This document shows positions 18,546 through 56,039 of a stretch of DNA of 64,000 nt, piece by piece. The notes under the pieces were generated by a model. That model worked only from the letters and a program-made list of their open reading frames with translations. It made no database searches and was not told the DNA's origin. Origin of the DNA: Hyphomicrobium sp. ghe19 (GTDB taxonomy: Bacteria; Pseudomonadota; Alphaproteobacteria; Rhizobiales; Hyphomicrobiaceae); assembly GCF_902712875.1 (NCBI RefSeq), contig NZ_LR743509.1, forward strand, positions 1,116,001 to 1,180,000. The letters are read 5' to 3'. Numbering within the stretch: position 1 is the stretch's first letter; each line of letters begins with the position of its first letter. Position numbers and translations under genes: made by a program.

Positions 18546-19025
18546 TCAGCCGCGGCGGGCCTTTTCAATCGCGGCGACGTCGATTTTCCGCATGGTCATC
18601 ATGGCTTCGAAGGCGCGCTTTGCTTCGTCGCCGCCGACTGCCAGTGCCTCGGTCAATACGCGCGGCGTGATCTGCCAGTTGACGCCCCATTTATCGCTGC
18701 ACCACCCGCACGCGTTCTCCTTACCGCCGTTGCCGACGATGGCATTCCAATAGCGGTCGGTTTCCTCCTGATCGTCGGTCGCGATCTGAAACGAGAAAGC
18801 TATGTTGTGCTTTATCTCAGGGCCACCGTTGAGGCCCATGCACGGGATGCCGGCGACGGTGAATTCGACCACAAGAACGTCGCCCTTCTTGCCGGACGGG
18901 TAGTCGCCCGGCGCGCGAGTGATGGCGCCGACGGCGCTGTCGGGGAAGGTCTTGGCATAGAAGTGTGCGGCGGCTTCGGCGTCCTTATCGTACCAGACGC
19001 AAATCGTGTTCTTGGGCTTGGTCAT
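18546..19025 (-). CDS. VOC superfamily protein (PhnB-like)
   Basis: A 159-residue protein with the PhnB-type vicinal-oxygen-chelate fold: ICVWYDKDAEAAAHFYAKTF at the start, then FTVAGIPCMGLNGGP, IAFSFQIATDDQEETDRYW and CGWCSDKWGVNWQITP. Members are often named 3-demethylubiquinone-9 3-methyltransferase, but that activity is not supported for the family. Role unknown. GGGAGGA precedes the ATG at 19025. Confidence 0.8.
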   Translation of the reverse strand: MTKPKNTICVWYDKDAEAAAHFYAKTFPDSAVGAITRAPGDYPSGKKGDVLVVEFTVAGIPCMGLNGGPEIKHNIAFSFQIATDDQEETDRYWNAIVGNGGKENACGWCSDKWGVNWQITPRVLTEALAVGGDEAKRAFEAMMTMRKIDVAAIEKARRG

Positions 19026-19450: not shown

Positions 19451-19565
19451 GCGGGTGAGGCTGCCCCATCCGAGCGCCGCGCGACGCCTCGCGCGATGCC
19501 CTTGCCGGATGGGTGAGGGGATTATCGGGGAAGGCGAGAGAGCGGGGATAAGTTTTTTTGTGGCG
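19451..19565 (+). repeat. Direct repeat, short copy (115 bp)
   Basis: Begins GCGGGTGAGGCTGCCCCATC and ends with GGGGATAAGTTTTTTTGTGG and CG. Nearly identical to 20135-20291 except that it lacks 42 internal bases. It contains CCCATCCG and CGGATGGG, which can pair. The two copies flank the small exported gene at 19668-19964. Confidence 0.85.
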
Positions 19566-20134: not shown

Positions 20135-20291
20135 GCGGGTGAGGCTGCCCCATCCGAGCGCCGCGCGACGCGCGGATGCGTGTGGGCATCTATTTGGAGC
20201 GCCATCGAGACTTCTCGCGCGATGCCCTTGCCGGATGGGTGAGGGGATTATCGGGGAAGGCGAGAGAGCGGGGATAAGTTTTTTTGTGGCG
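20135..20291 (+). repeat. Direct repeat, long copy (157 bp)
   Basis: Same ends as the copy at 19451 but with 42 extra bases beginning GCGGATGCGTGTGGGCATCT. It ends 104 bp before the start of the AAA15-DUF4435 gene, at the point where base composition drops. Confidence 0.85.
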
Positions 20292-20394
20292 ATTGTCCCA
20301 AGTTAGCTTCAGCCCTTTGAAATTTCCACGGCTCCTCTATGCAGATTGATAGAAAGCTTTGCGCGATCGAGGAATTGGGCCGGATGGGGAAGCA

Positions 20395-22488
20395 ATGAAA
20401 ATCGATACTCTTCTAATCAATAACTTTCGCGGAATTAGTCGTCTAGAGGCCCGAAATTTAGGCGACACTGTTATTATCGCGGGCCAAAATGGATCTGGCA
20501 AGTCGTGTATTTTCGACGCTATTCGGCTTCTTAAGAGCTCGTACGGGGGGTACCAGCAAAACGAATGGCAACAATTCTTCGGTGAGTTTGCAATTCAGCT
20601 TCACGGCGGCGCGCGAAACCTCAGTGGACTATTTAACGACATTCGCAAGTCGCTCGTCATAGAATGCTATTTTCGGCTGCGAGATTCAGAAAAGGCGTAT
20701 GTGAATGCGAATGCTGCTGAGCTATTAGAAACTACGATTTGGCAGACGCTTTTGCCTGAGGCCTTCCAGTGGGGCGGTTATCAAAAAGCGCTTTTTGCAA
20801 ACCAATTTAGAGAGCGCCAGCCCGAGGTTACGGCTCGCGTGAAAGCTGAGCTTCCAGCGCTTCAAAATGAGCTAATGCTCCCGGAATTGCTAGGAAAAAT
20901 AGAGATATTCCCAAATGGAAATATTTCTATCCAAAACTGCCGATTGCTATCGGTTCTGTTTGCCAACTACAGGCCTCGTTACCTCGGTGTTATCGATTTC
21001 CATGGCGCACAACGACATTATGGGCGGGAGATTGTTCAGGGAATAAATCTAAGTCTGGAACAATCCAATCAGCAGCAGGGACAGCATACGCTTTATAATT
21101 ATAACAACAAGTACAACAACGTGAAAAGCGAGATGGCTGGCAACTTTATAAAAGAGCTGCTGGCCGAGAAAGCAATCGCCCGGGCGGGCGATTCTGCATC
21201 CCTTTCGCAAACGTTGAAAGAGCTTTTCGAAGCGTTCTTTCCGGAAAAGAAATTTCTCGGACCTCAGCCGACTCCTGAAGGCAGCCTTTCTTTTCCGGTT
21301 GTTACGCCAAGTGGGGCCGTTCACGATTTGGACGAATTAAGTTCGGGCGAGAAGGAAATTCTCTATGGATATTTGCGAATAAGAAGTTCTGCGCCCCTTA
21401 ACTCCATCATACTGCTTGATGAGCCCGAACTGCATTTAAATCCGAGATTGATACGAGGGCTGCCTGAATTTTATCGCAAACATCTCGGAGAGGCACTTCA
21501 GAACCAGTTGTGGCTCGTTACTCACTCAGATGCCCTTATTAGGGAAGCTGTTGGAAAGCCCGGGTTCAATGTCTATCACATGTTGCCCTGCGGTTCGGAT
21601 GCTAATGCGTCAGGTCAGCTTCGCCCGTTGAGTATAAAAGAGGATATCGAATTGGTTCTCGCAGATCTTGTGGGAGACCTAGCAGCATACCGGCCAGGCG
21701 GCAAAGGCCTTCTATTCGAAGGTGGCGGAAATTCTGATTTCGATAAGACGCTTGCGAGCGTCTTATTCCGGGAGGAATTGCGTGGCATCAACTTGATATC
21801 TGGGGCAAACAAGACCCGCGTTAAGGCACTCCACGAAGTTCTCGAACGCGCATATTTGAATGGTGATTTGCCCACGAAATTTTATTCTATCGTTGATCGA
21901 GACAGTGATGGCGAAGTGGAAGGTTCGAAAGGGCTTACTAGGTTTGTGTGGGATGTATACCACATAGAAAACTATCTGCTGCAAGAAGACGTAATTAGTG
22001 ATGTTCTTAAGTCTCTGGATCTGAAAAAGCACTTCGATGTCAATGCTGTGGCAACGAGCCTAGAAAACGCTGCGCGTCTCGCAGTTCCAGGCATGCTTCA
22101 GCATTCAATTAGATCTTTTGCCAATTCCAAGTTGTTATCTTCCATCGACCTCGGTTTTCCTCCTAACACTCTCACCATCGGTCGCGACTTGCATGCGGCC
22201 GTGGAACGATCGGTAACAAGAATTCAAGCGATGCTTTCTGCCAATCTGTCGGAGAAAGAGCTGATAAATAAGGAGCAGGAGTTCAGAAATCAGTTCGAAC
22301 AGAGCTTTGCGGACGGTTCTTGGAAAGGGACGCTGCCGGGCAGAGAGATATTGAAACAATTCGTTGCACTGGAAGGCATCACAGTCGGATATGAGGTGTT
22401 TCGGAATCTCATAGTAACTCGAATGGGCGAACTCGGTCGAAAACCCATAGGAATGAAAAAAATTATCGATCGTATTGCCGCGGATTAG
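20395..22488 (+). CDS. Fused AAA15-type ATPase and DUF4435/TOPRIM-like protein (PARIS-like)
   Basis: A 697-residue protein from the ATG at 20395 (GGGGAAGC upstream). Residues 1-400 form an SMC/ABC-type ATPase: Walker A GQNGSGKS at 30-37, signature LSSGEK at 315-320, Walker B with D342/E343 in LLDEPELHLNP and a switch His in LVTHSD at 384-389. Residues 435-697 look like DUF4435, a TOPRIM-type nuclease domain: E442 in LLFEGGGNSD, an acidic cluster D501-R-D503-S-D505, HIENY at 523-527 and a late PGREIL. In the PARIS anti-phage system these parts are AriA (AAA15 ATPase, sensor) and AriB (DUF4435 effector, which cleaves tRNA), and fused forms are known. The gene is clearly AT-richer than its neighbours and sits alone between repeats and uvrA, consistent with transfer. 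The PARIS assignment is inferred from domain order; another OLD-like ATPase is the alternative. Confidence 0.75.
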   Translation: MKIDTLLINNFRGISRLEARNLGDTVIIAGQNGSGKSCIFDAIRLLKSSYGGYQQNEWQQFFGEFAIQLHGGARNLSGLFNDIRKSLVIECYFRLRDSEKAYVNANAAELLETTIWQTLLPEAFQWGGYQKALFANQFRERQPEVTARVKAELPALQNELMLPELLGKIEIFPNGNISIQNCRLLSVLFANYRPRYLGVIDFHGAQRHYGREIVQGINLSLEQSNQQQGQHTLYNYNNKYNNVKSEMAGNFIKELLAEKAIARAGDSASLSQTLKELFEAFFPEKKFLGPQPTPEGSLSFPVVTPSGAVHDLDELSSGEKEILYGYLRIRSSAPLNSIILLDEPELHLNPRLIRGLPEFYRKHLGEALQNQLWLVTHSDALIREAVGKPGFNVYHMLPCGSDANASGQLRPLSIKEDIELVLADLVGDLAAYRPGGKGLLFEGGGNSDFDKTLASVLFREELRGINLISGANKTRVKALHEVLERAYLNGDLPTKFYSIVDRDSDGEVEGSKGLTRFVWDVYHIENYLLQEDVISDVLKSLDLKKHFDVNAVATSLENAARLAVPGMLQHSIRSFANSKLLSSIDLGFPPNTLTIGRDLHAAVERSVTRIQAMLSANLSEKELINKEQEFRNQFEQSFADGSWKGTLPGREILKQFVALEGITVGYEVFRNLIVTRMGELGRKPIGMKKIIDRIAAD

Positions 22489-22647
22489 GTCTGGCTTTTT
22501 TCTTTCCGAGGCTACACGTCAGAACGAAGTTCAATCGGGAAGCCCCGACTGCTTGTTTCCGGATGGGCATTAAAGGAGTTCTAGAGGGTGCGCGCGTAAA
22601 GTGCTGTGGTGTGCTCCCACTCTCCTCCCCGCAAGGGGGAGGGTAAG
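22489..22647. other. Gap between the defence-like gene and uvrA
   Basis: Contains CTCCTCCCCGCAAGGGGGAGG at about 22622-22642, a short palindrome of the 'CCTCTCCCC' class also seen at 42035-42125, which can act as a stop for the convergent genes. No gene. Confidence 0.45.
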
Positions 22648-25614
<2,967 letters not shown>

Positions 25615-25880
25615 GAGGTAACGTCTACCCGAGGGGGGCTGGGGCGGCAATGCGACCGGAGCAAGCGCTCACAGATGATACGCGGGCATCGGGATTTCAA
25701 GGCTTTAGGTCGCTTTCGAAGCTTTCGTGGGCCGCGGGGAATGTTCGCCGGGCCTCCGGGATAACGCCCCTCCTGGGTGGTCCGTTCACGGGTCTGTCAG
25801 CAAGCCGTCAGCATTCAGCCTTGACGGCACTGTAAGGCTCGCCGAAACCAAGTGCGCGTCGCTACCGGGAGGGCATATCA

Positions 25881-26498
25881 ATGAGCGAAGCTCCATCTCT
25901 GCTGAATTTTGCGCACCCCGCGCATCCCGTGAACCGGACCGTTTCGGTCGTCAAGCTGCTCGTGCTTGCGGTTTCCGTTGCAGCTGCCGTTCCGACGGCG
26001 CGCAATCTCTATTTCTCGTGGAAGAACGACGTGCCGTTCAATCAGGTCGATCACCGGCTGGCGCAAGCCAAGCTGCTGGAGAAGAATTTCGATTGCAAGA
26101 TCGACTACCGTTCGTTGTCGGCGCAAGGCAATGCGCGGGTGGATGTCGGCTCATGTGCAAAGACCGGCGATATCTCGATCCGGGTGAAGAGCCCTGGCGG
26201 GCAAGTGAACTACGAGTGGATCGCATTCGAGCAGTTGCCGAAGCCGGCGTCGAGATCGGGAAGCCTTGTCAATCTTCTGATATCGCGCGCCTTCGCCGAT
26301 GAGGGGCAGCCGTCGAGCGTTCAGCCGTTCGAAGTCGCGCAGGATGCCGCCGTGCTTTGCCAGGGCAAGGCTGGCGACAACATCGTCCGCGTGGTTCAAT
26401 CGGGCGGACAATGCGTGAAGGAAACGGTTTCCATTTTCCGTGGCTCGGTCGAGAAGAGCGAGACTGTGCCTTGCGATAAGGCGTGTCCGATCAGGTAA
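25881..26498 (+). CDS. Exported or anchored protein, unknown; source of a duplicated fragment
   Basis: A 205-residue protein. A single hydrophobic segment (about residues 22-40: VVKLLVLAVSVAAAVPTA) follows a cytoplasmic stretch, so it is either anchored or has a long signal. The outer part has six Cys, spread over DCKID, SCAK, LCQG, QCVK, PCDKACP. No family recognised. It overlaps the convergent kinase gene by eight bases. Its 5' end and upstream region recur in decayed form at 27165-27312. Confidence 0.6.
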   Translation: MSEAPSLLNFAHPAHPVNRTVSVVKLLVLAVSVAAAVPTARNLYFSWKNDVPFNQVDHRLAQAKLLEKNFDCKIDYRSLSAQGNARVDVGSCAKTGDISIRVKSPGGQVNYEWIAFEQLPKPASRSGSLVNLLISRAFADEGQPSSVQPFEVAQDAAVLCQGKAGDNIVRVVQSGGQCVKETVSIFRGSVEKSETVPCDKACPIR

Positions 26499-27108
26499 GG
26501 CACAACGCAGGTTCCGCAATTGTTGCTGCAACATGCGCAGCTAAAAAAGCGAATGCCCGCGGCGCGGACTTCGTCCGCCTGAAATAGGCATCGAAACGCG
26601 CCAACGACGGAAGTGTTTCGATGATCTGTCCGGCAAGATCCTCAACGGGACTTTCGGCGTTCAGTACCGTGTGCCTATGGGTGTACCAGGGGTTCCATTT
26701 CTTCCGCGCTGAGACAATCGCTTGCCATTCGATCGCGTCTTTCCCGAAAAGGTTGTCGGCCCTGGAAAGGATGCGTCCTCGCGCCGTGGCTTCGGACGCT
26801 TCAAGCACGAAAATATTCTCGAAGCGCGGGAGGTACGTTTCTATGTTGCCGCTAATCCCGCAGATAAATCTCGGCTTCGGTGAGCGAAGCCATCGTTCCA
26901 TTATCTCCTCATTCCAGAAAGTCTGGTGTTTGCTGAAATCGAAGGGGCGCTCTGGTATTGAGATGGCCTTCTTTGTTTTCAGACATCTCCACTGCATAAG
27001 GGTCTGATCGAGGTCGGCGTCGATCGTGAGGAATCCGCGCCGCGACAACTCGGCGGCGAGCGTCGATTTACCTGTTCCGCTATGGCCAGTGATTAGGAAC
27101 AGAGGCAT
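26491..27108 (-). CDS. P-loop kinase-like ATPase
   Basis: A 205-residue protein beginning MPLFLITGHSGTGKSTLAAE, a Walker A loop (GHSGTGKST), then FLTIDADLD as in adenylate/shikimate-type small-molecule kinases. A lid-like region (GRILSRADNLFG) and a C-terminal helix follow. Probably phosphorylates a small molecule, unidentified. It sits between the exported gene at 25881 and that gene's decayed copy. Confidence 0.7.
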   Translation of the reverse strand: MPLFLITGHSGTGKSTLAAELSRRGFLTIDADLDQTLMQWRCLKTKKAISIPERPFDFSKHQTFWNEEIMERWLRSPKPRFICGISGNIETYLPRFENIFVLEASEATARGRILSRADNLFGKDAIEWQAIVSARKKWNPWYTHRHTVLNAESPVEDLAGQIIETLPSLARFDAYFRRTKSAPRAFAFLAAHVAATIAEPALCLT

Positions 27109-27189
27109 TGCTTTCAGGTTGCTCCTAAGTTTCGCTTTGGGTCGATGCGAGCCGCCAAGTTCTGGCGTCGCTATCGGGATGGCATATCA

Positions 27190-27312
27190 ATGAGCGAAGC
27201 TCTGTCTCTGCCGAATATTGCGCACCCGATGAACCGGACCGTTTGAGTCGTCAAGTTGCTCGTGCTCGCGGTTCCCGTCGCGGCGGCCGTTCCGACGGCG
27301 CGGAATCTGGGT
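27190..27312 (+). pseudogene. Decayed 5' fragment copy of the gene at 25881
   Basis: The ATG at 27190 and about 23 bases before it match 25858-25881 closely (ATATCAATGAGCGAAGCT is identical). The copy reads MSEALSLPNIAHPMNRTV and then TGA: an in-frame nine-base deletion and a stop created where the source has TTTCGG. After the stop it still encodes VVKLLVLAVPVAAAVPTARN-like sequence, then similarity ends. A partial duplication, no longer functional. Confidence 0.85.
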
Positions 27313-27664
27313 TCCGGCGCGGCGCCGCGGCCAGGATGACAAGCGAAGCCGGCGTGGTTCCGCTCGGCGGGACGACGGACTTGGCGGGGCGCCGCGAAGT
27401 TGGCGATCGTTTTAGCAAATAGCGAGCAACTCAGGCAGTCATCCTGCAAGGGTCCCGGGCTGATACTGGTTCGTTGGGACATCGCTTTTTCCCCCGCTCG
27501 CTTCGAAATGGCTGGGGCCGGCGTTCCTTTGCAGCAACGAAGATTTGCGCGTCGCTGTGTTCCGCGATCTCGAGGCGGAAGCCAGGCTGCAGTGGCGCTG
27601 ACACTGCCATCGCGACGCGCCGGATGGGAAGCGTCCTTGGAGGAGCGACCGCTGGAGCGCCGTT
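27313..27664. other. Gap upstream of the efflux operon
   Basis: About 350 bp. No reading frame on either strand is convincing. It should hold the promoter of the HlyD/DHA2 pair; I could not identify an operator. Confidence 0.35.
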
Positions 27665-28771
27665 GTGAGCTCGACCGATCTCAAAGCCAAACGCGTCGCG
27701 GATGACGACACAAAGCCGAAGCATCCGGTGATACGTCGTACATTGCTGATCCTGGGGCCGCTCGTCGCCATCGGCATCGGGCTTTGGCTTTATCTGACCG
27801 GCGGGACGTATGTGAGCGAGGAAGATTCCTACGTCCACGCCGCCAATGTCACCATCAATCCGCAGGTCGCGGGCCAAGTGAGCCGGGTGGCCGTCGGGCC
27901 GAACGAACTAGTGAAGGAAGGTCAGCTGCTGTTCGTGATCGATCCGGAGCCGTTTCAGATCACGCTGGATGAGGCCAATGCCAACCTAGCGACCGTCAGC
28001 CAGACGCTGAGGGGACGCGTCGCGACGTACAAACAAAATCTAGCGGACGTGGACCAGTCGAAGGCCGATGTCGTCTATGCCAAACAGGAATTCGAGCGCA
28101 TCAGTGCGCTCGTGAAGGATGCCGTGGCAACGGAGGCGCAGTTCGATCAGGCGCAGAAGGCGCTGCGCGTCGCCCAGCAGTCGGTCCGTGCGGCAGAATC
28201 CAGTGCCGCGTCCACTCTGGCGGACCTCGGCGGCAACATCGGACTACCCATCGAACAGCACGCCAGCTATCTGGCGGCGAAAGCCAAGGTCGCTCTGGCT
28301 GAGCGCAATGTGCGTCTGACCCGTATCCTTGCGCCCTTCGCCGGTACGGCAACGAGGGTCGAGAACATCCAGCCGGGAAGTTATCTGACCGTTGGGGCGG
28401 CGGCCTTCTCGTTGATCGGTTCCGATACCTGGGTCGATGCGAACATCAAGGAAACGGATCTCACGCACATCAAAGTTGGAGATCCGGCGACGATCGTTCT
28501 CGATTCCTATCCGGGGCAGACGCTGCAGGCGAAAGTTCAAAGCATCACGCCGGCAAGCGGATCCGTGTTTGCGTTGATCCCAGCTCAGAATGCGTCGGGC
28601 AACTGGGTCAAGGTCGTGCAGCGCATGCCGGTCCGGCTCGTCGTCACGAAGCCCGACCCGAACGTCGTGATGCGCGACGGCGCCAGCGCGACGGTCTCGA
28701 TCGATACCGGCTATCACCGCACACTTCGCACGCTGTGGCGTGACCTGACTGGGTTGGTGGGATTCAGCTGA
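27665..28771 (+). CDS. HlyD/EmrA-type membrane fusion protein
   Basis: A 368-residue periplasmic adaptor: a cytoplasmic N-terminus, one transmembrane segment (about 25-43), then a lipoyl-like half (VTINPQVAGQVSRVAVGPNE), a long coiled hairpin (about 100-200), the second lipoyl half (RILAPFAGTATRVENIQPGS) and a beta-barrel region. With the next gene it forms a two-part drug efflux pump that would need an outer-membrane TolC. GTG start at 27665; the stop overlaps the next ATG (TGATG). Confidence 0.88.
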   Translation: MSSTDLKAKRVADDDTKPKHPVIRRTLLILGPLVAIGIGLWLYLTGGTYVSEEDSYVHAANVTINPQVAGQVSRVAVGPNELVKEGQLLFVIDPEPFQITLDEANANLATVSQTLRGRVATYKQNLADVDQSKADVVYAKQEFERISALVKDAVATEAQFDQAQKALRVAQQSVRAAESSAASTLADLGGNIGLPIEQHASYLAAKAKVALAERNVRLTRILAPFAGTATRVENIQPGSYLTVGAAAFSLIGSDTWVDANIKETDLTHIKVGDPATIVLDSYPGQTLQAKVQSITPASGSVFALIPAQNASGNWVKVVQRMPVRLVVTKPDPNVVMRDGASATVSIDTGYHRTLRTLWRDLTGLVGFS

Positions 28772-30321
28772 TGACGGGCGTCGCCGCGACAGCACCCACA
28801 CCGCTGACGGGTTCGATGCGTACCCTCGTAACTGTTTGCGTGATGATCGCGGCGCTAATGGAGGCGCTGGATTCGACGATCGCCAACGTTGCGCTGCCGT
28901 ACATGAAGGGCAGTCTTGCGACGACCGAATATCAGATCGAATGGGTGCTTACCTCCTACATCGTCGCGGCTGCGATCATGACCCCGGCGACGGGTTGGCT
29001 CGACGCGCGTTTCGGCCGCCGCCCGGTGTTTCTCACCTGTATCGCAGGCTTCATCATTTTCTCGATGCTGTGCGGGACCGCCACCAACATCAGCGAGATG
29101 GTCAGTTACCGTTTGCTGCAAGGCGTGTTCGGTGCGCCGCTCGTACCGCTGTCTCAGGCTGTTCTGCTCGACAGCTATCCGCTCTCTCAGCGGGGACAGG
29201 CGATGGCGATTTTCGGCGTCGGCGTGATGCTCGGGCCGATCCTTGGTCCGACGCTCGGTGGCTGGCTGACCCAGAATTACAACTGGCGCTGGGTGTTTTA
29301 CGTCAACGTGCCGTTCGGAATCCTGACGTTTGTGCTGAGTTGGTTCTTTCTGGCCGAGAGGGACAAGATGCCCTCCGCAAAGCTCGATTGGATGGGCTTT
29401 GGAACGCTAGGCCTCGGGATCGGTGCGCTGCAGCTTTTCCTCGACCGTGGCCAGCAGCTGGACTGGTTTTCGTCGACGGAAATCAAAATCGAATTCGCCC
29501 TCGCCATTCTCGGCTTCTATCTCTTCATCGTCCACACGGCGACGGCGCGAAAAGCGTTCCTCGACGGCCGATTGTTCGTCGACCGCAATTTCGTGATGGG
29601 GAATGTGTTGATTTTCATCGTCGGCGCGGTGCTGTTCGCGACGCTGTCGCTGCTCTCGCCCTACCTCGAAAATCTGTTGAACTATCCGGTGTTGACGGCC
29701 GGATTGGTGCTTGCGCCACGGGGCCTCGGCACAATGGTGGCGATGGTGTTGGTTGGACGGCTGATGACCGTCGTGGACAGCAAATATCTGCTGCTCGCCG
29801 GCCTGGCCATGACCGCCCTCTCGCTCTATCAGATGAGCCAGTTCACCGCGGATATCTCGCAAGCGGCGATCGTCAAGACCGGGATCATCCAGGGGTTCGG
29901 TCTCGGCTTCGTCTTCGTGCCCCTGAGTACGGTGGCTTTCGCGACGTTGCCGGATGCGCTCAACGCGCAAGGGACCGGTTTCTTCAACCTGATGCGCAAT
30001 GTCGGATCGAGTGTCGGCATCTCGGTGACGTCATTTCTGTTGACCCGAAATTCGGACATCATGCATTCGGACCTCGCGGGTCACATCTCTCCTTACAGCC
30101 GCGGCGTTCAAGATCTGGGTTCGGTCATCGATCTGCATACTGAGAAGGGCAAAGCGATCGTCAATGAGCTGGTCAACGCTCAGGCGCAGAACATCGGTTA
30201 TGAAGATAATTTCCGGCTCATGATGTACCTGGCCATCCTGTCGATGCCGCTCGTGTTCCTGCTGCGCCATACGAAGCCTGTGAAGGCGCATCCCGCTGGG
30301 GCCCAGGAGCGCGCGACGTGA
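28771..30321 (+). CDS. DHA2-family (EmrB-type) drug efflux transporter
   Basis: A 516-residue, 14-segment MFS antiporter. Features are LMEALDSTIANVALPYM in TM1, GWLDARFGRRPVF in the loop 2-3, and the motif C-like MLGPILGPTLGGWL in TM5. Overlaps the adaptor gene by one base, so the two are co-transcribed. Probably exports hydrophobic toxic compounds across both membranes. No linked repressor is seen. Confidence 0.9.
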   Translation: MTGVAATAPTPLTGSMRTLVTVCVMIAALMEALDSTIANVALPYMKGSLATTEYQIEWVLTSYIVAAAIMTPATGWLDARFGRRPVFLTCIAGFIIFSMLCGTATNISEMVSYRLLQGVFGAPLVPLSQAVLLDSYPLSQRGQAMAIFGVGVMLGPILGPTLGGWLTQNYNWRWVFYVNVPFGILTFVLSWFFLAERDKMPSAKLDWMGFGTLGLGIGALQLFLDRGQQLDWFSSTEIKIEFALAILGFYLFIVHTATARKAFLDGRLFVDRNFVMGNVLIFIVGAVLFATLSLLSPYLENLLNYPVLTAGLVLAPRGLGTMVAMVLVGRLMTVVDSKYLLLAGLAMTALSLYQMSQFTADISQAAIVKTGIIQGFGLGFVFVPLSTVAFATLPDALNAQGTGFFNLMRNVGSSVGISVTSFLLTRNSDIMHSDLAGHISPYSRGVQDLGSVIDLHTEKGKAIVNELVNAQAQNIGYEDNFRLMMYLAILSMPLVFLLRHTKPVKAHPAGAQERAT

Positions 30322-30340
30322 CGCGCCCGCCAGCCAATCG

Positions 30341-48161: not shown

Positions 48162-48236
48162 GGGCCCGTAGCTCAGCGGTAGAGCATCTGACTTTTAATC
48201 AGAGGGTCGTTGGTTCGATCCCAACCGGGCTCACCA
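48162..48236 (+). tRNA. tRNA-Lys (UUU anticodon), CCA encoded
   Basis: A full cloverleaf: acceptor GGGCCCG / CGGGCTC, D-arm TAGCTCAGCGGTAGAGCA, anticodon arm CTGA-CTTTTAA-TCAG with anticodon TTT, and T-arm GTTGG-TTCGATC-CCAAC with encoded CCA. It decodes AAA/AAG. The glycosyltransferase island begins about 600 bp downstream. It is also of interest because lysine tRNA is the reported target of the PARIS effector. Confidence 0.97.
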
Positions 48237-48829
48237 CCAACATCAATAACTTCGTTCGCCTGCCGGAAGGAACGGATCGCCAAAGAGCTGATCCTTCCAA
48301 AGTTGCACGCAAGGCATTTCGAAATTGAAAGAGGCGCGGGCCGCGGCCTGACAATCGGTGTCCCGTTTATTTGTTGCGCCCCAATAATTCGTTCCACGGT
48401 CGCACGACACCGGAATTCGCATGTGTCTGCCATGCAAGATTCCGAGATGCAGCCGTTTGGATTCCGGCAGCGCATAAACCGTTGAATGATGCAATTCAAA
48501 CACGAATGCGATTTGAATAGCGCCGTTTTGGAGGGAACGGAATTGATCGTTGACGCTTTGTGGTTGTGTGTTTACTTCTCTTCCCGGGACTCGTAAGCGC
48601 GGTCCGTGGGGGCGCTCATCGGCAATTTCAATTAGCTAATTGAGACGGCGCGCTTGCTGCCTAGCCGGGATTGACGGCTATGAAACCCACCGATTTCCCA
48701 AAGTTCATATGGACGTCGATGTGTGCTCGAGGTCCTTCGCAGTGATGACGACCTGAAGGCAATCACGCAGGCCACCGCCTAATTGAGGTCAGCGCGGTTA
48801 ATCCGATAAACCGAGGGTGGAATTCTATT
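48237..48829. other. 590-bp gap between tRNA-Lys and the glycosyltransferase operon
   Basis: No solid gene. A minus-strand frame at 48243-48503 (60-86 residues depending on start, with MRIPVSCDRGTNYWGATN) has an acceptable composition but no ribosome site I trust. AT-rich stretches near 48520-48660 are possible promoters for the operon. No repeat of the tRNA 3' end, as would mark an attachment site, was found inside the window. Confidence 0.35.
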
Positions 48830-51445
48830 GTGAGGGGCGACGATGAGGGCAATCCTCGACTGATATTTTCCCACATCGAAGACCGGTCTGCGCTTTCGCA
48901 GATCGAACGAAGTTCCCTCTCCGAGGAGCTTCGCCTATCTGACTTCAAAGCATCGACATTGATGCAGTACGTGCTGAAGAGTAACCTCGCAGTCCGGCGG
49001 CGAAGCGCACTTGGGACGCTGGCTCGGACATTCGGCAAGAGCAAACTCGCGAAGACATGCAGAACTTTGGAGCGGTCCGGTCTCTTTGATCGTGATTGGT
49101 ATTTGCAACAATACGACGACGTTCGCGCTTCCCGAATTGAACCCGTGGCCCACTACATTTTGTGCGGAGCTTTCGAGGGGCGGAAGCCCAACCGCGCGTT
49201 CGATACTGTCTACTACTTGAAAACCAATCCTGACGTGTATGCCAGCGGTCTCAATCCGCTGCTCCACTACATCCGCGTCGGTGAGAAGGAGAACCGAAGG
49301 CCGTCGCAAAAGTTCGACCCGGCGGCTTATCGCCTTTCAAATCCTGATGTTAGTGCTGCGGGCGGCGCGCTCCTGAAGCATTTTCTGAGGCAAGCGAACA
49401 ATACGTCTGCGGGACCGGCCTATTGTCCCAAGGAACCGGCGTGGAGCGTTTTCGAAGAGATACTCAGCACCACAGGCGGACGCGCGGAGCAGGCGAGCGG
49501 TGCTGCCGTTGTCGATGTGGTTATCCCCGTGTTCAAGGGATATTCCGATACGTTGGCTTGCATTGCGTCGGTGCTCTCAGCCACGAACCAAACGGCGTTC
49601 GAGCTGGTGGTCATCAACGATGCTTCGCCGGACGAGAGGCTTAGCGAGGCGCTCACTCGCCTTAGGGCCATGGGTCTCATCACGCTCATCGAGAACGAGG
49701 TGAATCTCGGTTTCGTAAAAACGGTCAATCGCGGGATGAGCCGGTCGAGCCGGGACGTCATCATCCTCAACAGCGATACGTTGGTTTTCAATCACTGGAT
49801 CGACCGGCTTCGCGGTCATGCGAATGGTGCCAAGGTCGGGACGGTGACGCCCTTCACCAACAATGGCGAGATTTGCAGCTATCCGACGTTCTGCGCTTCC
49901 AATCCCGCGGCTCTGGAAATTGAATTCGCGGAATTGGATCAATTGGCCGCCGTCGTGAACAATGGCCGATCTCTTGAAGTGCCGACGGGCGTGGGATTCT
50001 GCATGTATATCACCCGCGCGGCGCTCGATAGCGCCGGTTATTTCGATTTCGAATTGTTTGGGGTGGGTTATGGCGAGGAGAATGATTTCTGTCTGAGGGT
50101 GAAAGAATTAGGATTTTCCAATAAGCACGCGCTGGATGTTTTTGTTTTCCACTCGGGGTCGGGGTCTTTCGGAACAAGAGAAAAGACGCTCAAGCAAAAA
50201 GCAATCCGTACACTGACGAAGAAATACCCCGATTATCAAAAGGTCGTCGGCAAGTTTATCGAGCGTGATCCGGCCCGCATTTACCGGACGAAGCTCGATG
50301 TGGCCCGCATGCTACGCCAGGCTCCGGCCGCTCTGACGTTGGTGTTTACCCACGCGCTCGGCGGAGGCGTTGAAAAGTTTCTTCGCGACCGGTCCGCGCG
50401 CTTGCCATCGGGCGAAGCAATCTTGGCGGCGTATCCCGACAACGGCGGCAAAGGCATTCAGCTGCACCGGGGCGGAGCGGGCCTCGACCTGCCTAACATT
50501 CCGAGTTTCGACCTGGATGCCGATGAGGGGGCGTTCGCTGCTCTGCTCGTCGAGTTGAACGTAACCAGGATCGAGGTGCACAGCACCGCCGGATGGTCCG
50601 TCTCGCTGTTCGAAAAGCTCCGGCGGCTCAAAGATTCGACCGGCGTCTCCTATGATGTCCACCTGCACGACTACACCGCGATCTGTCCGCAGATCACGCT
50701 CATCGATCAGAGCGGCGTGTATTGCGGCGAGCCTGGCGTCGCGGCGTGCGACCGTTGTCTTTTGGCCAAACCCGACAGGCTCAGAAGCATCCATCCGGAT
50801 GCCGACAGGTTTTTCCTGACAAACATTCGCGCCTGGCGAGAGATCTATCACCGGTTCCTGCTCGCTAGCCGGAGCGTCGTTGCGCCTTCGGAAGATACGC
50901 GGCGGCGGGTGCGCAAGTATTTTCCAGATGTCGAAATCCGGGTCGAGCCGCATCCGGAAGACCGTCAGACGCAATCCGGGATCGCGCGGACATATACGGA
51001 TGGCCCCGTGAAGGTCGCCGTCATCGGCGCTATCGGTCCGCACAAAGGTTCCAACCTTTTGCTCGAATGCGCGCGAGACGCCTTGCGGCGTTCCTTACCG
51101 CTCGAATTCGTCGTGGTCGGCTACACGGATCTCGACGTCCAAACGTTGCCACCAAATTTGAAAGTTACGGGACGCTACGAAGAACACGAGGTCATCTCGA
51201 TACTCGAGCGCCAGAACGCGCATGTCGTTCTGATGCCGTCGGTGTGCCCGGAAACGTATTGCTACACGCTGTCGATCGCGCTTTCGGCGGGGTTCCCGGT
51301 CTATGCGTTCGACCTCGGCGCTCCGGCCGAAAGGCTCGCGAGCGACGCAAGGCACGTCTTGCTTCCGCTGTCGCTGATGACGGAGCCGGCGTCCCTCAAC
51401 GATCTGTTGGTTTCGAACATCGTACCATCGCAGTTAAGTGCATAA
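48830..51445 (+). CDS. Two-domain glycosyltransferase (GT2 + GT4-like) with NPDV repeats
   Basis: An 871-residue protein. Residues 86-190 hold three 38-residue repeats of the form FD..YYL..NPDV...G.NPL.HY...G..E.R.P. A GT-A domain of family 2 follows (about 227-480: VVDVVIPVFKGYSDTLACIA, INDASPDE, LNSDTLVF, GEENDFCLR), then a GT-B, family-4-like domain (about 500-871: TLVFTHALGGGVEKF, VAVIGAIGPHKGSNLL, PSVCPETYCY). It probably adds two sugars to a surface glycan. GTG start, with GAGGGTGG upstream. First gene of a four-gene operon. Confidence 0.85.
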   Translation: MRGDDEGNPRLIFSHIEDRSALSQIERSSLSEELRLSDFKASTLMQYVLKSNLAVRRRSALGTLARTFGKSKLAKTCRTLERSGLFDRDWYLQQYDDVRASRIEPVAHYILCGAFEGRKPNRAFDTVYYLKTNPDVYASGLNPLLHYIRVGEKENRRPSQKFDPAAYRLSNPDVSAAGGALLKHFLRQANNTSAGPAYCPKEPAWSVFEEILSTTGGRAEQASGAAVVDVVIPVFKGYSDTLACIASVLSATNQTAFELVVINDASPDERLSEALTRLRAMGLITLIENEVNLGFVKTVNRGMSRSSRDVIILNSDTLVFNHWIDRLRGHANGAKVGTVTPFTNNGEICSYPTFCASNPAALEIEFAELDQLAAVVNNGRSLEVPTGVGFCMYITRAALDSAGYFDFELFGVGYGEENDFCLRVKELGFSNKHALDVFVFHSGSGSFGTREKTLKQKAIRTLTKKYPDYQKVVGKFIERDPARIYRTKLDVARMLRQAPAALTLVFTHALGGGVEKFLRDRSARLPSGEAILAAYPDNGGKGIQLHRGGAGLDLPNIPSFDLDADEGAFAALLVELNVTRIEVHSTAGWSVSLFEKLRRLKDSTGVSYDVHLHDYTAICPQITLIDQSGVYCGEPGVAACDRCLLAKPDRLRSIHPDADRFFLTNIRAWREIYHRFLLASRSVVAPSEDTRRRVRKYFPDVEIRVEPHPEDRQTQSGIARTYTDGPVKVAVIGAIGPHKGSNLLLECARDALRRSLPLEFVVVGYTDLDVQTLPPNLKVTGRYEEHEVISILERQNAHVVLMPSVCPETYCYTLSIALSAGFPVYAFDLGAPAERLASDARHVLLPLSLMTEPASLNDLLVSNIVPSQLSA

Positions 51446-51460
51446 TTCGACGGGCAGGAA

Positions 51461-53500
51461 ATGGTCACTTTTCAGGGATTAGAGCGTTCGCGTAAGTGGT
51501 CGAGGCTGATAGCTGCTCTTCGCCATCCGCGAAGGCGCGATAAACGCAGGAAGTACCGGCGTCGCGTGGTGGACTTGCAGCGGGCTGCGATCAGCGGTGA
51601 CGAAGGCGGATCGGATGCGGTGTCGGTCCAGCGCCTCGTGCGCGAGGTGATAGCCTCGGAATTCGACACTACGTATTACCTGGATCGCTACGATGATGTT
51701 CGCGCGGTTGCGGCATCGGCAGTCGCCTTCGATGCGCTAGACCATTACCTGGAAATGGGTTGGAAAGAGGGGCGCGACCCCAACGCCGATTTCTCGACCG
51801 AATATTATGTTCAGTCGAACCCGGATGTTTCGATGTCTGGGATCAATCCCTTTTTTCACTTCCTGACGATCGGCAGACGGAAGGGATTATCGCCAAGTCT
51901 GAAGAAGCGGAGCGCCGGATCGGCGTCGGACCTTGTCTATGAGGTTATCGCCAAGGAATTCGATTGTGAGTACTACCTCGGTACGAACCGCGACATCGCA
52001 CGCGTCAAGGAGGCGAATAAAGATTTCGATCCGATAGCGCATTACATCACGAACGGTTGGCGTGAGGGACGAAATCCTCGTGCGGATTTTTCGACGAGCG
52101 ACTACATGCTGGCGAACCCTGATGTCGTTGCCGCGAATTTGAATCCCTTCTACCACTACATCGGAAGCGGTAGGCGGGAAGGACGGTCTCCTGCATTGCC
52201 GGGCGGGTTCCGCACGCGCTATCTGAGGACGATGCGTTCGTTGCCGGAAGTCGTTTCCGCCTGGACAATTCCTTCGAGGCCATACCTGCCGAAATCGTCA
52301 GCCGCGCTCGCGCAGATAATTTCATCGTCTGCGGAACGCACGCACGGCCGCATCGCGATTTCGTTGAGTCACGACAATTACATCGAAGGCATGGGCGGCG
52401 TTCAGCTGTGCGTGAGGCAAGAGCAGCAAGAGTGTCTAGCTCTCGGCTGCTCATATCTGAACATTCATCCGGTTCAACCGCTGCCGATTCTGGCGGCTTC
52501 CGAGAACTGGTCGGCTCAGTTGGTTCGATTGGTTTTGAACGGTGAGGTGATCGGCGTCACGACAGCGGCCAATCTGATCGCGGCCATTGAACCGGTGGCA
52601 ACCAGCTTCACGAAGGCCGCCGTTTTCGTGCACGCCATGCACGGTCTCACGACTGAGATGGTTCTCGCGCTCGCAGATGCCGTACCCGACAGCCAAACGT
52701 ACTTTTGGCTGCACGATTTCTTCTCCGTTTGTCCGGGCTACAACCTGCTGCGGAACGACATCACGTACTGCGGTGCGCCATCTCCGGATTCGCAAGCCTG
52801 TTCGATTTGCAAATACGGCGATAGCCGGCGCGAGCACATTAGCCGATTTACGGCGATGTTCGAGAGAGCGAGATTTACGGTCGTGTCTCCGTCCGACGCT
52901 ACCCTGGATCTCTGGAAAAAGGCGTCGCATCTTTTTCAGGGACGGGCGATCGTGCACCCGCATTGCGCCTTAGCGAGCAGTCCTGCGCCGACGCGAGATG
53001 CCACTAAGCCGATAAAATTCGCTTTCATTGGTAGCCCGACGGTGCACAAGGGCTGGCCCGTTTTCAAAATGCTCGCCGATGCCGGATGCACTCATCAGAA
53101 TTATCAGTTCTACTATTTCGGAATGGCCGACATCGGCGAGTCCCAGATCGAGCAAGTCACGGTCAGCGTGTCGCTGGAAGACCGGTCTGCCATGAGCGAT
53201 GCGCTCGCGGCGCACGAGATCGATTACGCGATCGTCTGGTCTCTCTGTCCTGAAACGTTCTGCTTCGCTGCCTATGAGGCTGCTGCCGCCGGTGCTTACG
53301 TTGTCACCAATCGCGATTCCGGGAATGTTGCAAGAATGGCCGCCGACAAGTCTTTAGGAATGGTTCTGGCCGACGAGCACGAGCTGCTCGAACACCTGAA
53401 CAACGGGTTCTTCGAACGACACCGGGGGAAAATCGAACCGCACCGGGGAAGGTTGGATTTCCGTTGTTTCGTGCGCGAACTGTTCGGTGAGGTCCAATGA
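51461..53500 (+). CDS. GT4-like glycosyltransferase with duplicated NPDV-repeat region
   Basis: A 679-residue protein. Two copies of a ~90-residue block (about 56-146 and 156-244), each made of two repeats: YYLDRYDDVRA...HYLEMGWKEGRDP then YYVQSNPDVSMSGINPFFHF, and again YYLGTNRDIAR...HYITNGWREGRNP then YMLANPDVVAANLNPFYHYI. A GT-B-type glycosyltransferase region follows (about 310-679: IALSHDNYIEGMGGVQLCVR, FAFIGSPTVHKGWPVFKMLA, SLCPETFCFAAYEAAAAGAY). Starts 15 bp after the first gene and overlaps the next by four bases. Confidence 0.82.
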   Translation: MVTFQGLERSRKWSRLIAALRHPRRRDKRRKYRRRVVDLQRAAISGDEGGSDAVSVQRLVREVIASEFDTTYYLDRYDDVRAVAASAVAFDALDHYLEMGWKEGRDPNADFSTEYYVQSNPDVSMSGINPFFHFLTIGRRKGLSPSLKKRSAGSASDLVYEVIAKEFDCEYYLGTNRDIARVKEANKDFDPIAHYITNGWREGRNPRADFSTSDYMLANPDVVAANLNPFYHYIGSGRREGRSPALPGGFRTRYLRTMRSLPEVVSAWTIPSRPYLPKSSAALAQIISSSAERTHGRIAISLSHDNYIEGMGGVQLCVRQEQQECLALGCSYLNIHPVQPLPILAASENWSAQLVRLVLNGEVIGVTTAANLIAAIEPVATSFTKAAVFVHAMHGLTTEMVLALADAVPDSQTYFWLHDFFSVCPGYNLLRNDITYCGAPSPDSQACSICKYGDSRREHISRFTAMFERARFTVVSPSDATLDLWKKASHLFQGRAIVHPHCALASSPAPTRDATKPIKFAFIGSPTVHKGWPVFKMLADAGCTHQNYQFYYFGMADIGESQIEQVTVSVSLEDRSAMSDALAAHEIDYAIVWSLCPETFCFAAYEAAAAGAYVVTNRDSGNVARMAADKSLGMVLADEHELLEHLNNGFFERHRGKIEPHRGRLDFRCFVRELFGEVQ

Positions 53501-54537
53501 CTATCTGTTGCTTCACGAGTTTCACGTTCAGCTATCTGGCGAAAGCCGCCGTTCTCGCTGCTTCGGTGAAGCGCTATCATCCCGACTGGATCATGTGCGC
53601 GGTGATTACCGATCGCGAACCGGGCGGATACACGTTCGACCCAGAGACCGTGCCATTCGACGAGATCGTTTGGGGCGATGAATTATTCGGGTCGGCAACT
53701 CCGGCGTGGCTGTTCAAGCACGACCTCGTCGAGGCCTGCACCGCTGTGAAGGGGCGAGCGCTTCGCCAGCTGCTGCAGCAGTATGACAAGGTCATCTACC
53801 TCGATCCGGACGTTGCTGTTTTCGGTCCGATGACTTCGATCGTCGATGGGCTCGACCGGTACTCGACGCTTCTTACGCCACACCAGCTCGAGCCCGCGGT
53901 TACCGAAAGCTCCATCCGCGATAACGAATTCGGCTCGCTGAAGCACGGCACTTTCAACCTGGGGTTTCTTGCAGTCCGCAGCGACGCTGAAGGTGACCGC
54001 TTCGCAGAATGGTGGGAGGATCGCCTTACGAGGTTCTGCTTCTCCGATCCGGTAAGCGGCCTTTTTGTTGATCAAAAATGGTGCGATCTAGCTCCCGCAT
54101 TCTTCAGCGAGTTGGGCATCGTTCGCGACCCCGGTTACAACGTTGCCAGCTGGAATCTCAATCGTCGGCGTGTGACCATCGACGTCGATGGAGCGATCAA
54201 GGTGAACGGTGAGCCGCTCAAATTCTATCATTTCACGAAGCTCGGCGAGGTCGGCGATACCGCGACGATGCGATATGCCGGCGACAGTTTCGAGGTCTTT
54301 GAAATCTGGGCCTGGTACAAGCGCGCGGTTGCGAGCTGGACCGACACGAGAATACCTGAAAGATGGTGGCACTACGCACAGTACGATAACGGGGAAAGAA
54401 TCCCCCAGTACGCGCGGGAGCTTTACCGAAACCGCCCGGATCTTCAGCACCACTTTCCGCATCCGTTTTCGACGGCCGGAGAATCCTACTACGCGTGGCT
54501 CCAGGCTCAGGGGCTCACATCCGGGTCTGCAGGCTAG
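53497..54537 (+). CDS. GT-A fold glycosyltransferase (GT8-like)
   Basis: A 346-residue protein without signal peptide. N-terminal AKAAVLAASVKRYHPDW and a DxD-type metal motif YLDPDVAVFGP are typical of GT8-like or nucleotide-diphospho-sugar transferases. Later HGTFNLGFLAVRSDAEGDRF, WCDLAPAFF and YNVASWNLNRRRV match this type of enzyme. Donor and acceptor unknown. The ATG overlaps the upstream stop (ATGA), so translation is coupled. Confidence 0.8.
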   Translation: MTICCFTSFTFSYLAKAAVLAASVKRYHPDWIMCAVITDREPGGYTFDPETVPFDEIVWGDELFGSATPAWLFKHDLVEACTAVKGRALRQLLQQYDKVIYLDPDVAVFGPMTSIVDGLDRYSTLLTPHQLEPAVTESSIRDNEFGSLKHGTFNLGFLAVRSDAEGDRFAEWWEDRLTRFCFSDPVSGLFVDQKWCDLAPAFFSELGIVRDPGYNVASWNLNRRRVTIDVDGAIKVNGEPLKFYHFTKLGEVGDTATMRYAGDSFEVFEIWAWYKRAVASWTDTRIPERWWHYAQYDNGERIPQYARELYRNRPDLQHHFPHPFSTAGESYYAWLQAQGLTSGSAG

Positions 54538-54573
54538 AGCGATTGCCCCTCGGCCGTTCGTTGGAGAGACGCA

Positions 54574-55944
54574 TTGAAGTGGTACTTTTGCCTGGACGCG
54601 TTCGGCGCCAATCGCGAAATTGGTGCATGGGCGGAGCTTGCAGTACAGAGCGCGCGTAAAAACACGAGCCTGCATCCGGTCTGTCTCTTCGACGGCCCCG
54701 CGGACGATCCGCTCGTCGGCCGGTTGAAGGCGTTGGACGTCGAGGTGATCATCTCGCGTTCACGCTTGGCGGACATCATTGAAAACGCGCACCGCACGTC
54801 GAACTATCCGATCCACGGAAAGGGCGCTTTTCTGCGCGCGGAGGTCCCCCGCATTGCGGCCGGCGACGAGCACGCGTTTTATACCGACTGCGACGTCTTC
54901 TTCTTTTGCGACCCACAGACGTCGGAACTTAAGCCAGACTTTTTCTCGGCAGGTCCGAGGCAGCTGCTCAGCGAGACCGATCTATTCAACAGCGGGGTTC
55001 TTTATTTCAACGTCGAACGGTTTCGTTCGGTTGAAGACGAATTCTTCGCATTTTGTCAAAGCAATCTGTTCAAGTTCCTTCCGGGGATGGACGAGCCACT
55101 CTTCAATGCGTTTTTCCGTGAGAAGTTCGATCCCTTGCCGGCGGGCTTGAACTGGCGACCGTTTTTTGGCTTCAACCGGTCCATCTCGGTTCTGCATTTT
55201 CATGGACCCAAGCTCGAGCATCTGGCCGCTTATCTCTCTTCCGGACCCGATGCGGATTGGGGCCCTTATGCAAAGGATCTGACGGAGCTCATCGCCAGCA
55301 GCATTCACTCCTATTACCGCTACATCGAAGATATCGTTGCCGCGGTTACGCCTCCGGCTTATCTGGACGTTTCGATGCAGCAATTTCTTCGCCTATACCC
55401 CAAGTTTTGTTCGACCATATTCGAACTCCACGGAGAGGCAGCTTTAAGCAAGCAAATAGAATTGCGGGAGCTATCCTGCACCCTAAAAAAGAGACAGAGA
55501 AAAGTAGCCGATCACATATTCGGTACATCGTCCAAAAGCGACGTCGTCGTCTCTCAGTACCTCTTTGAGGGCGGTGCTGTGACGTATCCGCACTTGCTCA
55601 TCAAGCTCTTTCCGAATGCCGGTGTCGGTGAATTGCGGAAGGTGTCGTACGCCTACAAGGCCGACCCGAATACTTGGCACGAGTGTTCTCTCGATGCGAT
55701 TGAGAAGCGTGGATGCGACGCGAGCGCCTTGGCTGTCGGAGGGCTAAGCCTCATAGCGCAAGCGCATGAGGTGCAGCTCGTGATACCGCCCAAAGCTATA
55801 CCGAACCGGCATGATCTACACGCGATCCTGGTGGAGTGCCGGGAGTGTGCAGACGAAGTCGCGACGGGAATTTACGCGGATTCCCAGGGTCGCTTTTTTT
55901 CCGTTAACGGCGCAACGCCCACCAAGACGATCCGGCAACAGTAA
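54574..55944 (+). CDS. Glycosyltransferase-like protein with C-terminal domain of unknown function
   Basis: A 456-residue protein from a TTG at 54574 (TGGAGAG upstream). The N-terminal half is GT-A-like: WAELAVQSARKNTSLHPVCL, the DxD-like motif FYTDCDVFFFCDP, LFNSGVLYFNVERFRS and LPGMDEPLFNAFF. The C-terminal 180 residues (about 275-456) are mixed alpha/beta with no recognised family. Last gene of the operon; its job in glycan assembly is inferred from neighbours. Confidence 0.75.
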   Translation: MKWYFCLDAFGANREIGAWAELAVQSARKNTSLHPVCLFDGPADDPLVGRLKALDVEVIISRSRLADIIENAHRTSNYPIHGKGAFLRAEVPRIAAGDEHAFYTDCDVFFFCDPQTSELKPDFFSAGPRQLLSETDLFNSGVLYFNVERFRSVEDEFFAFCQSNLFKFLPGMDEPLFNAFFREKFDPLPAGLNWRPFFGFNRSISVLHFHGPKLEHLAAYLSSGPDADWGPYAKDLTELIASSIHSYYRYIEDIVAAVTPPAYLDVSMQQFLRLYPKFCSTIFELHGEAALSKQIELRELSCTLKKRQRKVADHIFGTSSKSDVVVSQYLFEGGAVTYPHLLIKLFPNAGVGELRKVSYAYKADPNTWHECSLDAIEKRGCDASALAVGGLSLIAQAHEVQLVIPPKAIPNRHDLHAILVECRECADEVATGIYADSQGRFFSVNGATPTKTIRQQ

Positions 55945-56039
55945 TCGGAAGACTCGCGGCTAATCTCGGACGAAGCGAAGGGCGTATGGCGCCTGGGCGT
56001 CACGGCTCGGGGGGCCGTCAGTAGCGTTTCGATCGCAGA

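Follow-up and report, generated by a model that had tools for sequence, protein, structure and literature searches.

The element considered here is ariAB, an open reading frame (ORF) on the forward strand of a 64,000-nucleotide stretch of the genome of Hyphomicrobium sp. ghe19 (contig NZ_LR743509.1, positions 1,116,001 to 1,180,000), which in its entirety is called the window below. The original prediction, made from the sequence alone, had read this ORF as a single-gene anti-phage system resembling PARIS, in which an AAA15 ATPase is fused to a DUF4435/Toprim domain, and had placed it between repeats and uvrA. The gene does stand between two direct repeat copies on its left and uvrA on its right (Table 1), with a small conserved gene, which we take to be of the VOC family, as the core flank beyond the repeats. 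Its 697-residue translation runs without a stop codon; a TTG at 20359 would provide an alternative upstream start and a protein of 709 residues, and the alignment of the relatives begins at the ATG of 20395.

Table 1. Features of the ariAB locus in window coordinates. Fractions of 51 refer to aligned fused proteins; G001 is a congener with a two-gene PARIS.
Feature	Position	Strand	Basis or remark
ariAB, fused PARIS gene, 697 aa	20395..22488	+	full-length match to PADLOC PDLC02981 AriAB
Walker A GQNGSGKS, residues 30-37	20482..20505	+	K36 in 51/51
ABC signature LSSGEK, residues 315-320	21337..21354	+	motif read and alignment of relatives
Walker B LLDEPE, residues 340-345	21412..21429	+	E343 in 51/51
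H-loop LVTHSD, residues 374-379	21514..21531	+	H377 in 51/51
Conserved ATPase-effector junction, residues 424-441	21664..21717	+	mean top-residue frequency 0.85
DUF4435/Toprim effector domain, residues 442-627	21718..22275	+	Pfam match
E442, predicted catalytic Toprim glutamate	21718..21720	+	51/51; DUF4435 profile position 8
D501-x-D503, Toprim DxD	21895..21903	+	51/51; aligns with D93-x-D95 of G001 AriB
HIENY, residues 523-527	21961..21975	+	alignment of 51; partly common to two-gene AriB
Small conserved gene, 159 aa, left core flank	18546..19025	-	
Direct repeat copy 1	19480..19565	+	plus 37-nt piece 19451-19487
Direct repeat copy 2, left slot edge	20206..20291	+	plus 37-nt piece 20135-20171
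Slot content, DNA unlike congeners'	20290..22643	.	replaced gap in 5/5 mapped relatives
uvrA, right slot edge	22648..25650	-	
tRNA-Lys(UUU), possible target type, outside the system	48162..48236	+	sole tRNA found in window

The four ATPase motifs, E442 and HIENY, on which the early reading was built, are all present in the translation. We aligned it with 50 other fused proteins at 38-76% identity to it, the 51 sequences being the query, 28 of 43 genome loci, one viral contig and 21 other proteins among 120 listed matches. K36, E343, H377, E442, D501 and D503 are identical throughout, and H523, E525 and N526 are likewise invariant. The aspartate cluster proposed at 501, 503 and 505 survives in its first two members; the third is poorly kept (D in 24 and E in 19 of the 51), and the cluster is therefore really a Toprim DxD. 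This DxD and the ENY of HIENY align with the corresponding DxD and ENY of the G001 AriB, and E442 falls at the same DUF4435 profile position as E38 of that protein, assuming ungapped matches; the Toprim mutant used for the published AriB is E26A (PMC12409363, in part). Among the parts measured, conservation is lowest in the C-terminal 167 residues, where the mean top-residue frequency is 0.48.

The assignment to a family is carried by profiles and by folds. PADLOC's AriAB model matches with 652.2 bits (E 2.9e-196), pairing residues 1-696 with positions 1-692 of a 694-position profile; the second-best model is AriA (74.4 bits), and Old and GajA reach 36.3 and 40 bits. Pfam places AAA_21 (67.9 bits, cut-off 27) and AAA_15 (51 bits, cut-off 32.1) on the same chain as DUF4435, which at 27.3 bits stands barely above its cut-off of 27 (30.2 bits in the genome search), so that both domains anticipated for the fusion are recovered. 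A protein search gave 1864 proteins at E<=0.001 among 7999 scored candidates, query included, and all but one of the 120 listed matches (again with the query) span the whole query, the exception covering 95% of it; matches of this extent lie far outside what chance would give. When folds were ranked with VIA-align 2 over Foldseek's top 1000 chains, the solved AriB came first for the effector by about 3 Z units, above the OLD Toprim and GajA; the structural comparison with AriA and AriB suggested at the outset is thus borne out for the effector, the ATPase part being nearer to PtuA than to AriA. It was the fold comparison alone that reached AriB, since sequence searches of solved structures from P0001, A1, A2, A3 and the G001 AriB did not. 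The protein is an ABC ATPase of AAA_15/AAA_21 type joined to an AriB-type Toprim with intact active-site residues, and the full-length AriAB profile, the Pfam domains over their cut-offs and the AriB-like effector fold support, as independent tests, its identity as an intact single-gene PARIS of an already described kind.

The two halves appear to be joined in the simplest manner. Of the 51 proteins, 42 have H377 and E442 spaced 65 residues apart, and in the remaining nine the spacing is 63, 64, 73 or 74. Residue 428 of the solved AriA (464 residues) matches ariAB residue 381, which would put the counterpart of H377 near AriA 424 if ungapped and leave 40 residues; added to the 26 leading to the AriB glutamate, these make about 66, and because this arithmetic comes so close to the observed 65, the fusion gives the impression of a direct end-to-end join with no linker inserted. 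Nor does the junction look like a loose tether, because the 18 residues before E442 are conserved as strongly as the Walker A region (mean top-residue frequency 0.85 vs 0.84 for residues 20-60).

The surroundings of the gene are those of a replaceable slot. Homology with congeners ends at window positions 20284-20289 in G001, G020, G013 and G014; in the first two, whose mapped pieces average 91.1% and 90.4% identity, the break comes at 20289, where repeat copy 2 ends, and homology resumes by the uvrA stop codon, at 22644 in G001 and at 22647 in G020. For G015, G006 and G018 the break comes at 19558-19560, near the end of repeat copy 1, and homology resumes at 22649, 22688 and 22649. All five mapped relatives carry other DNA, 1.9-2.7 kb long, in the slot. 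The direct repeat is 86 nt long, with its two copies 97% identical, and 9 of 17 congeners have related copies at the corresponding position; the copies end in GGATAAG or similar followed by a T-run, beyond which comes either one shared unit or unlike DNA. We rejected a widely dispersed repeat, because its 28-nt core, with up to three mismatches allowed, occurs just twice in the whole 4.6-Mb genome, both times at the slot, and also a special hairpin (folding z 0.34). A 19-nt motif from the repeat end has seven occurrences in the genome vs none in the control, and one of the five copies away from the slot is 940 bp from a gene for a 1201-residue Dsr1-like protein (E 2.8e-99 over the N-terminal part; L122:220-3825, G000:C1:1911219-1914824). 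Three other low-GC ORFs near motif copies, of four tested, gave no PADLOC match at E<=1e-5, and we claim no rule linking the motif to defence genes.

What occupies the slot elsewhere in the genus? Slot stretches were obtained from 17 congeners (loci L077-L093), and 20 proteins from 14 of them, chosen by place and low guanine-plus-cytosine (GC) content, were searched with PADLOC. Partial stretches from G016, G003, G011 and G012 were inspected outside these 14; that of G012 is without low-GC cargo, as are the slots of G005 and G004, and the G021 stretch ended at once. In 9 of the 14, a protein no further than 1.8 kb from the uvrA end matches a defence or candidate-defence family at E<=1e-10. The slot holds AriA (9.2e-28) and AriB (2.6e-16), a two-gene PARIS, in G001, a CBASS cyclase with a 2TM effector in G020, the TIR-like PDC-S35 in G015, a ThsB-like TIR in G018, PDC-S39 in G009, PDC-M41AB in G010 and an AbiU-like protein with an AIPR domain in G008; PDC-M28C in G007 and a CBASS cyclase in G019 lie beyond the 159-residue gene, which in these two adjoins uvrA. 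Generic families were matched in G017 (reverse transcriptase) and G002 (QueC), a weak CHAT match (1.4e-6) in G013, and no PADLOC match at E<=0.001 was obtained for the slot proteins of G006 and G014. The uvrA slot often holds defence-like genes in this genus. The comparison is not a formal enrichment test. Of ten window proteins taken as a small control, UvrA matched strongly, one weakly (E 1.3e-4) and eight not at all. The UvrA matches, to mads_3 (E 1.9e-100) and mads_8 (E 1.3e-35), concern a housekeeping protein and illustrate the risk of false positives in the library.

The G002 slot (L084:2123-4362) contains three low-GC genes, for a QueC-like protein, for PfkB plus nucleoside 2-deoxyribosyltransferase and for a 144-residue protein that belongs to no family; together they may form a defence cassette not described before. 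G014 (L088:1472-3604) encodes 710 residues with a weak HATPase_c_3 match, and G006 (L081:2307-3479) a 390-residue protein without a family.

The two PARIS forms at this address deserve separate mention. Among 22 genomes of the genus DUF4435 occurs in two only, the source genome and G001, both times at the uvrA slot. In G001, a sister species, ariA precedes ariB on the strand of uvrA, ariA being 118 bp from uvrA, and its AriA matches solved AriA chains (E 3.2e-13). Between the fused protein and this two-gene PARIS the significant BLAST alignment is limited to 39 residues (E 4e-05 for the single pair) and the hhalign matches are short, for which reason we rejected a derivation of the fused gene on site from the G001 pair. 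Because the two are just remotely alike, the presence of distant PARIS forms, the sole DUF4435 loci of the genus set, at one address fits the replacement of cargo in a defence slot better.

The base composition of ariAB had been taken as a mark of transfer. The gene is indeed AT-rich (GC 0.473 vs 0.599 for the remaining window), and its GC at third codon positions (GC3), 0.481, is below that of the 24 other long ORFs compared, which lie at 0.655-0.874, a range that the choice among overlapping ORFs by length times GC3 biases towards high values. Yet ariAB is AT-richer than its surroundings in all 18 loci measured in other hosts, of 43 found; low GC is a trait of the fused family, and we rejected it as proof of recent arrival. 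The case for transfer is therefore made from the tree, from the congener map and from the lack of the gene in relatives. Eight of 60 genomes, own included, have any match to the ariAB protein at E<=0.001, and no orthologue was found in the 59 relatives, whose best match is 28% identical over partial length. UvrA next door is 98% identical to named Hyphomicrobium proteins (Alphaproteobacteria). Relatives were found on a plasmid of Kovacikia, a cyanobacterium (72% identical), in Mesorhizobium as a frameshifted copy (76% over the first 485 aligned residues), and in Noviherbaspirillum and Pseudomonas, and the carriers of ariAB range from Actinomycetota to the cyanobacterial plasmid. In a tree of 42 rows (29 genome loci, one viral contig, the Hyphomicrobium ariAB and 11 listed proteins) ariAB falls within a well-supported set of 15; one of these is labelled as an alphaproteobacterium and two as betaproteobacteria, and the 12 rows without a label include Pseudomonas proteins and the one from Kovacikia.

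Individual copies elsewhere show varied fates. In Tianweitania populi (L031:8001-11421) the two halves (residues 1-387 and 385-697) lie 1.3 kb apart, with ORFs that by eye resemble transposases between them on the opposite strand. The matches in L022, L020, L024 and L043 are split over two frames, which either genuine decay or a sequencing error could explain. One end of a 29.6-kb contig catalogued as viral (L052, IMGVR_UViG_2883984901_000001) carries a fused ariAB of 58% identity.

What could be the mode of action of a PARIS whose effector cannot be set free? In the two-gene system three AriB are kept inactive by an AriA hexamer; once Ocr or another phage protein has bound to AriA, AriB is released, forms a dimer and nicks some tRNAs, among them tRNA-Lys(UUU), which is cut between positions 40 and 41 (PMC12409363, in part; PMC11455837). 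Single-gene fusions were detected in 2022 (Rousset et al. 2022, PMC9122126, in part) and are mentioned in sections of PMC12409363; part of a review leaves it undecided whether their mode of operation is a different one (PMC10568477). By analogy with E. coli PARIS, we suppose that the ariAB protein would form an inactive multimer by way of its ATPase part, and that this part might be bound and altered in shape by a protein of the phage, a role played in E. coli by anti-restriction proteins such as Ocr. Since the fused chain fixes a 1:1 ratio and forbids the release known for AriB, we propose activation in place: neighbouring Toprim domains, covalently attached, would pair where they stand and nick tRNA (the main substrate in E. 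coli being tRNA-Lys(UUU), at the 40/41 position), whereupon translation and phage growth would stop. The hexamer and the Toprim pairing are inferred; the trigger, the cleavage of tRNA and abortive infection itself are extrapolated from E. coli PARIS. To the whole explanation, a horizontally acquired single-gene PARIS in a replaceable uvrA slot that is activated in place and nicks tRNA, we assign a probability of about 0.75.

The tRNA gene of the window adds little to this. The early reading had pointed to tRNA-Lys(UUU) at 48162, and the gene is there; as evidence for PARIS we rejected it, because a housekeeping gene 26 kb away proves nothing. Positions 39-43 of the host tRNA, in a numbering assigned in this analysis, read TCAGA and thus include the C40-A41 cleavage dinucleotide, which is compatible with a PARIS target and not discriminating.

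The alternative that survives best, though we hold it to be rather unlikely, is a PARIS in outline that has a different target, be it a tRNA or some other RNA, or responds to a different signal. The weak conservation of the C-terminal residues, the PtuA-like ATPase fold and the breadth of carriers would all suit such a divergence; against it, C40-A41 is present in the host tRNA-Lys, and there is no direct evidence for a different target. Still less probable is an OLD-type or Gabija-like DNA nuclease, activated in place and nicking phage DNA, in which the likeness to AriB would reflect shared ancestry: AriB is the leading fold match, the AriAB score far exceeds those of Old and GajA, the ENY motif is common to AriB, and the C-terminal half accordingly sides with AriB rather than with the OLD-type Toprim that had been named as the possible refutation. 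That ariAB is a decayed or silent passenger is very improbable: four copies elsewhere (L022, L020, L024, L031) are frameshifted or interrupted and the promoter scan found four candidates vs a shuffle mean of 2.4, without clear excess (the terminator scan likewise stayed near shuffle level), but the Hyphomicrobium ORF is full-length and every checked family-invariant residue is intact.

The reading of ariAB as a transferred PARIS activated in place allows a further, tentative hypothesis, to which we would give somewhat less than even odds: fused AriAB might constitute a separate PARIS branch, whose tethered Toprims pair within or between ATPase assemblies without release, and which is interchangeable with the two-gene form in the repeat-marked Hyphomicrobium slot. 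PARIS is explained in print through release and dimerisation of AriB, and a fusion could show whether release is essential or one route only. The activation of the fused protein is thus a testable question and, along with the slot, the main worth of the gene, the slot being a short and easily found address for Hyphomicrobium antiviral genes, some without a known family.

Two other regions of the window, at about 26.5-30.3 kb and 48.2-56 kb, vary strongly among the five mapped relatives, besides smaller gaps. The first contains genes that by eye resemble EmrA/EmrB transporters (26500-30340; absent, shorter or replaced in the five), and the second, directly downstream of tRNA-Lys, about 7.7 kb of glycosyltransferase-like genes, again by eye (48348-56038; a 33-bp gap in G001). 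Of seven proteins tested by PADLOC in these regions six gave no match and one (26494-27108) a weak one (E 1.3e-4).

With the single-gene PARIS already described (AriAB, PDLC02981; PMC9122126, in part) the Hyphomicrobium gene shares domains, their order and length, and no anatomical difference is seen; it adds a member to that group, and the contribution lies in its genomic context, the slot beside uvrA. From the two-gene PARIS (8ux9, 8v45, 8v46) it differs in being one chain with a 1:1 ratio, as opposed to six AriA to three AriB (PMC12409363, in part), in allowing no AriB-style release and in an ATPase fold that is nearer to PtuA. Unlike Septu PtuA and the retron PtuA, it has a fused Toprim as its effector; no HNH PtuB partner was noticed by eye among the neighbouring ORFs, the profile scan of neighbours covering uvrA and the 159-residue gene only. 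OLD class 1 and Gabija GajA similarly carry an N-terminal ATPase and a C-terminal Toprim on one chain, but the ariAB effector scores lower structurally against them than against AriB, and their profile matches are weak. The slot itself recalls the core defence hotspots cDHS1 and cDHS2 of Pseudomonas aeruginosa, where defence genes of lower GC are likewise swapped between fixed core genes and PARIS occurs in cDHS2 (PMC10250203, in part); the Hyphomicrobium counterpart belongs to another genus, is flanked by uvrA, measures about 2-4 kb and bears a direct repeat at its left edge.
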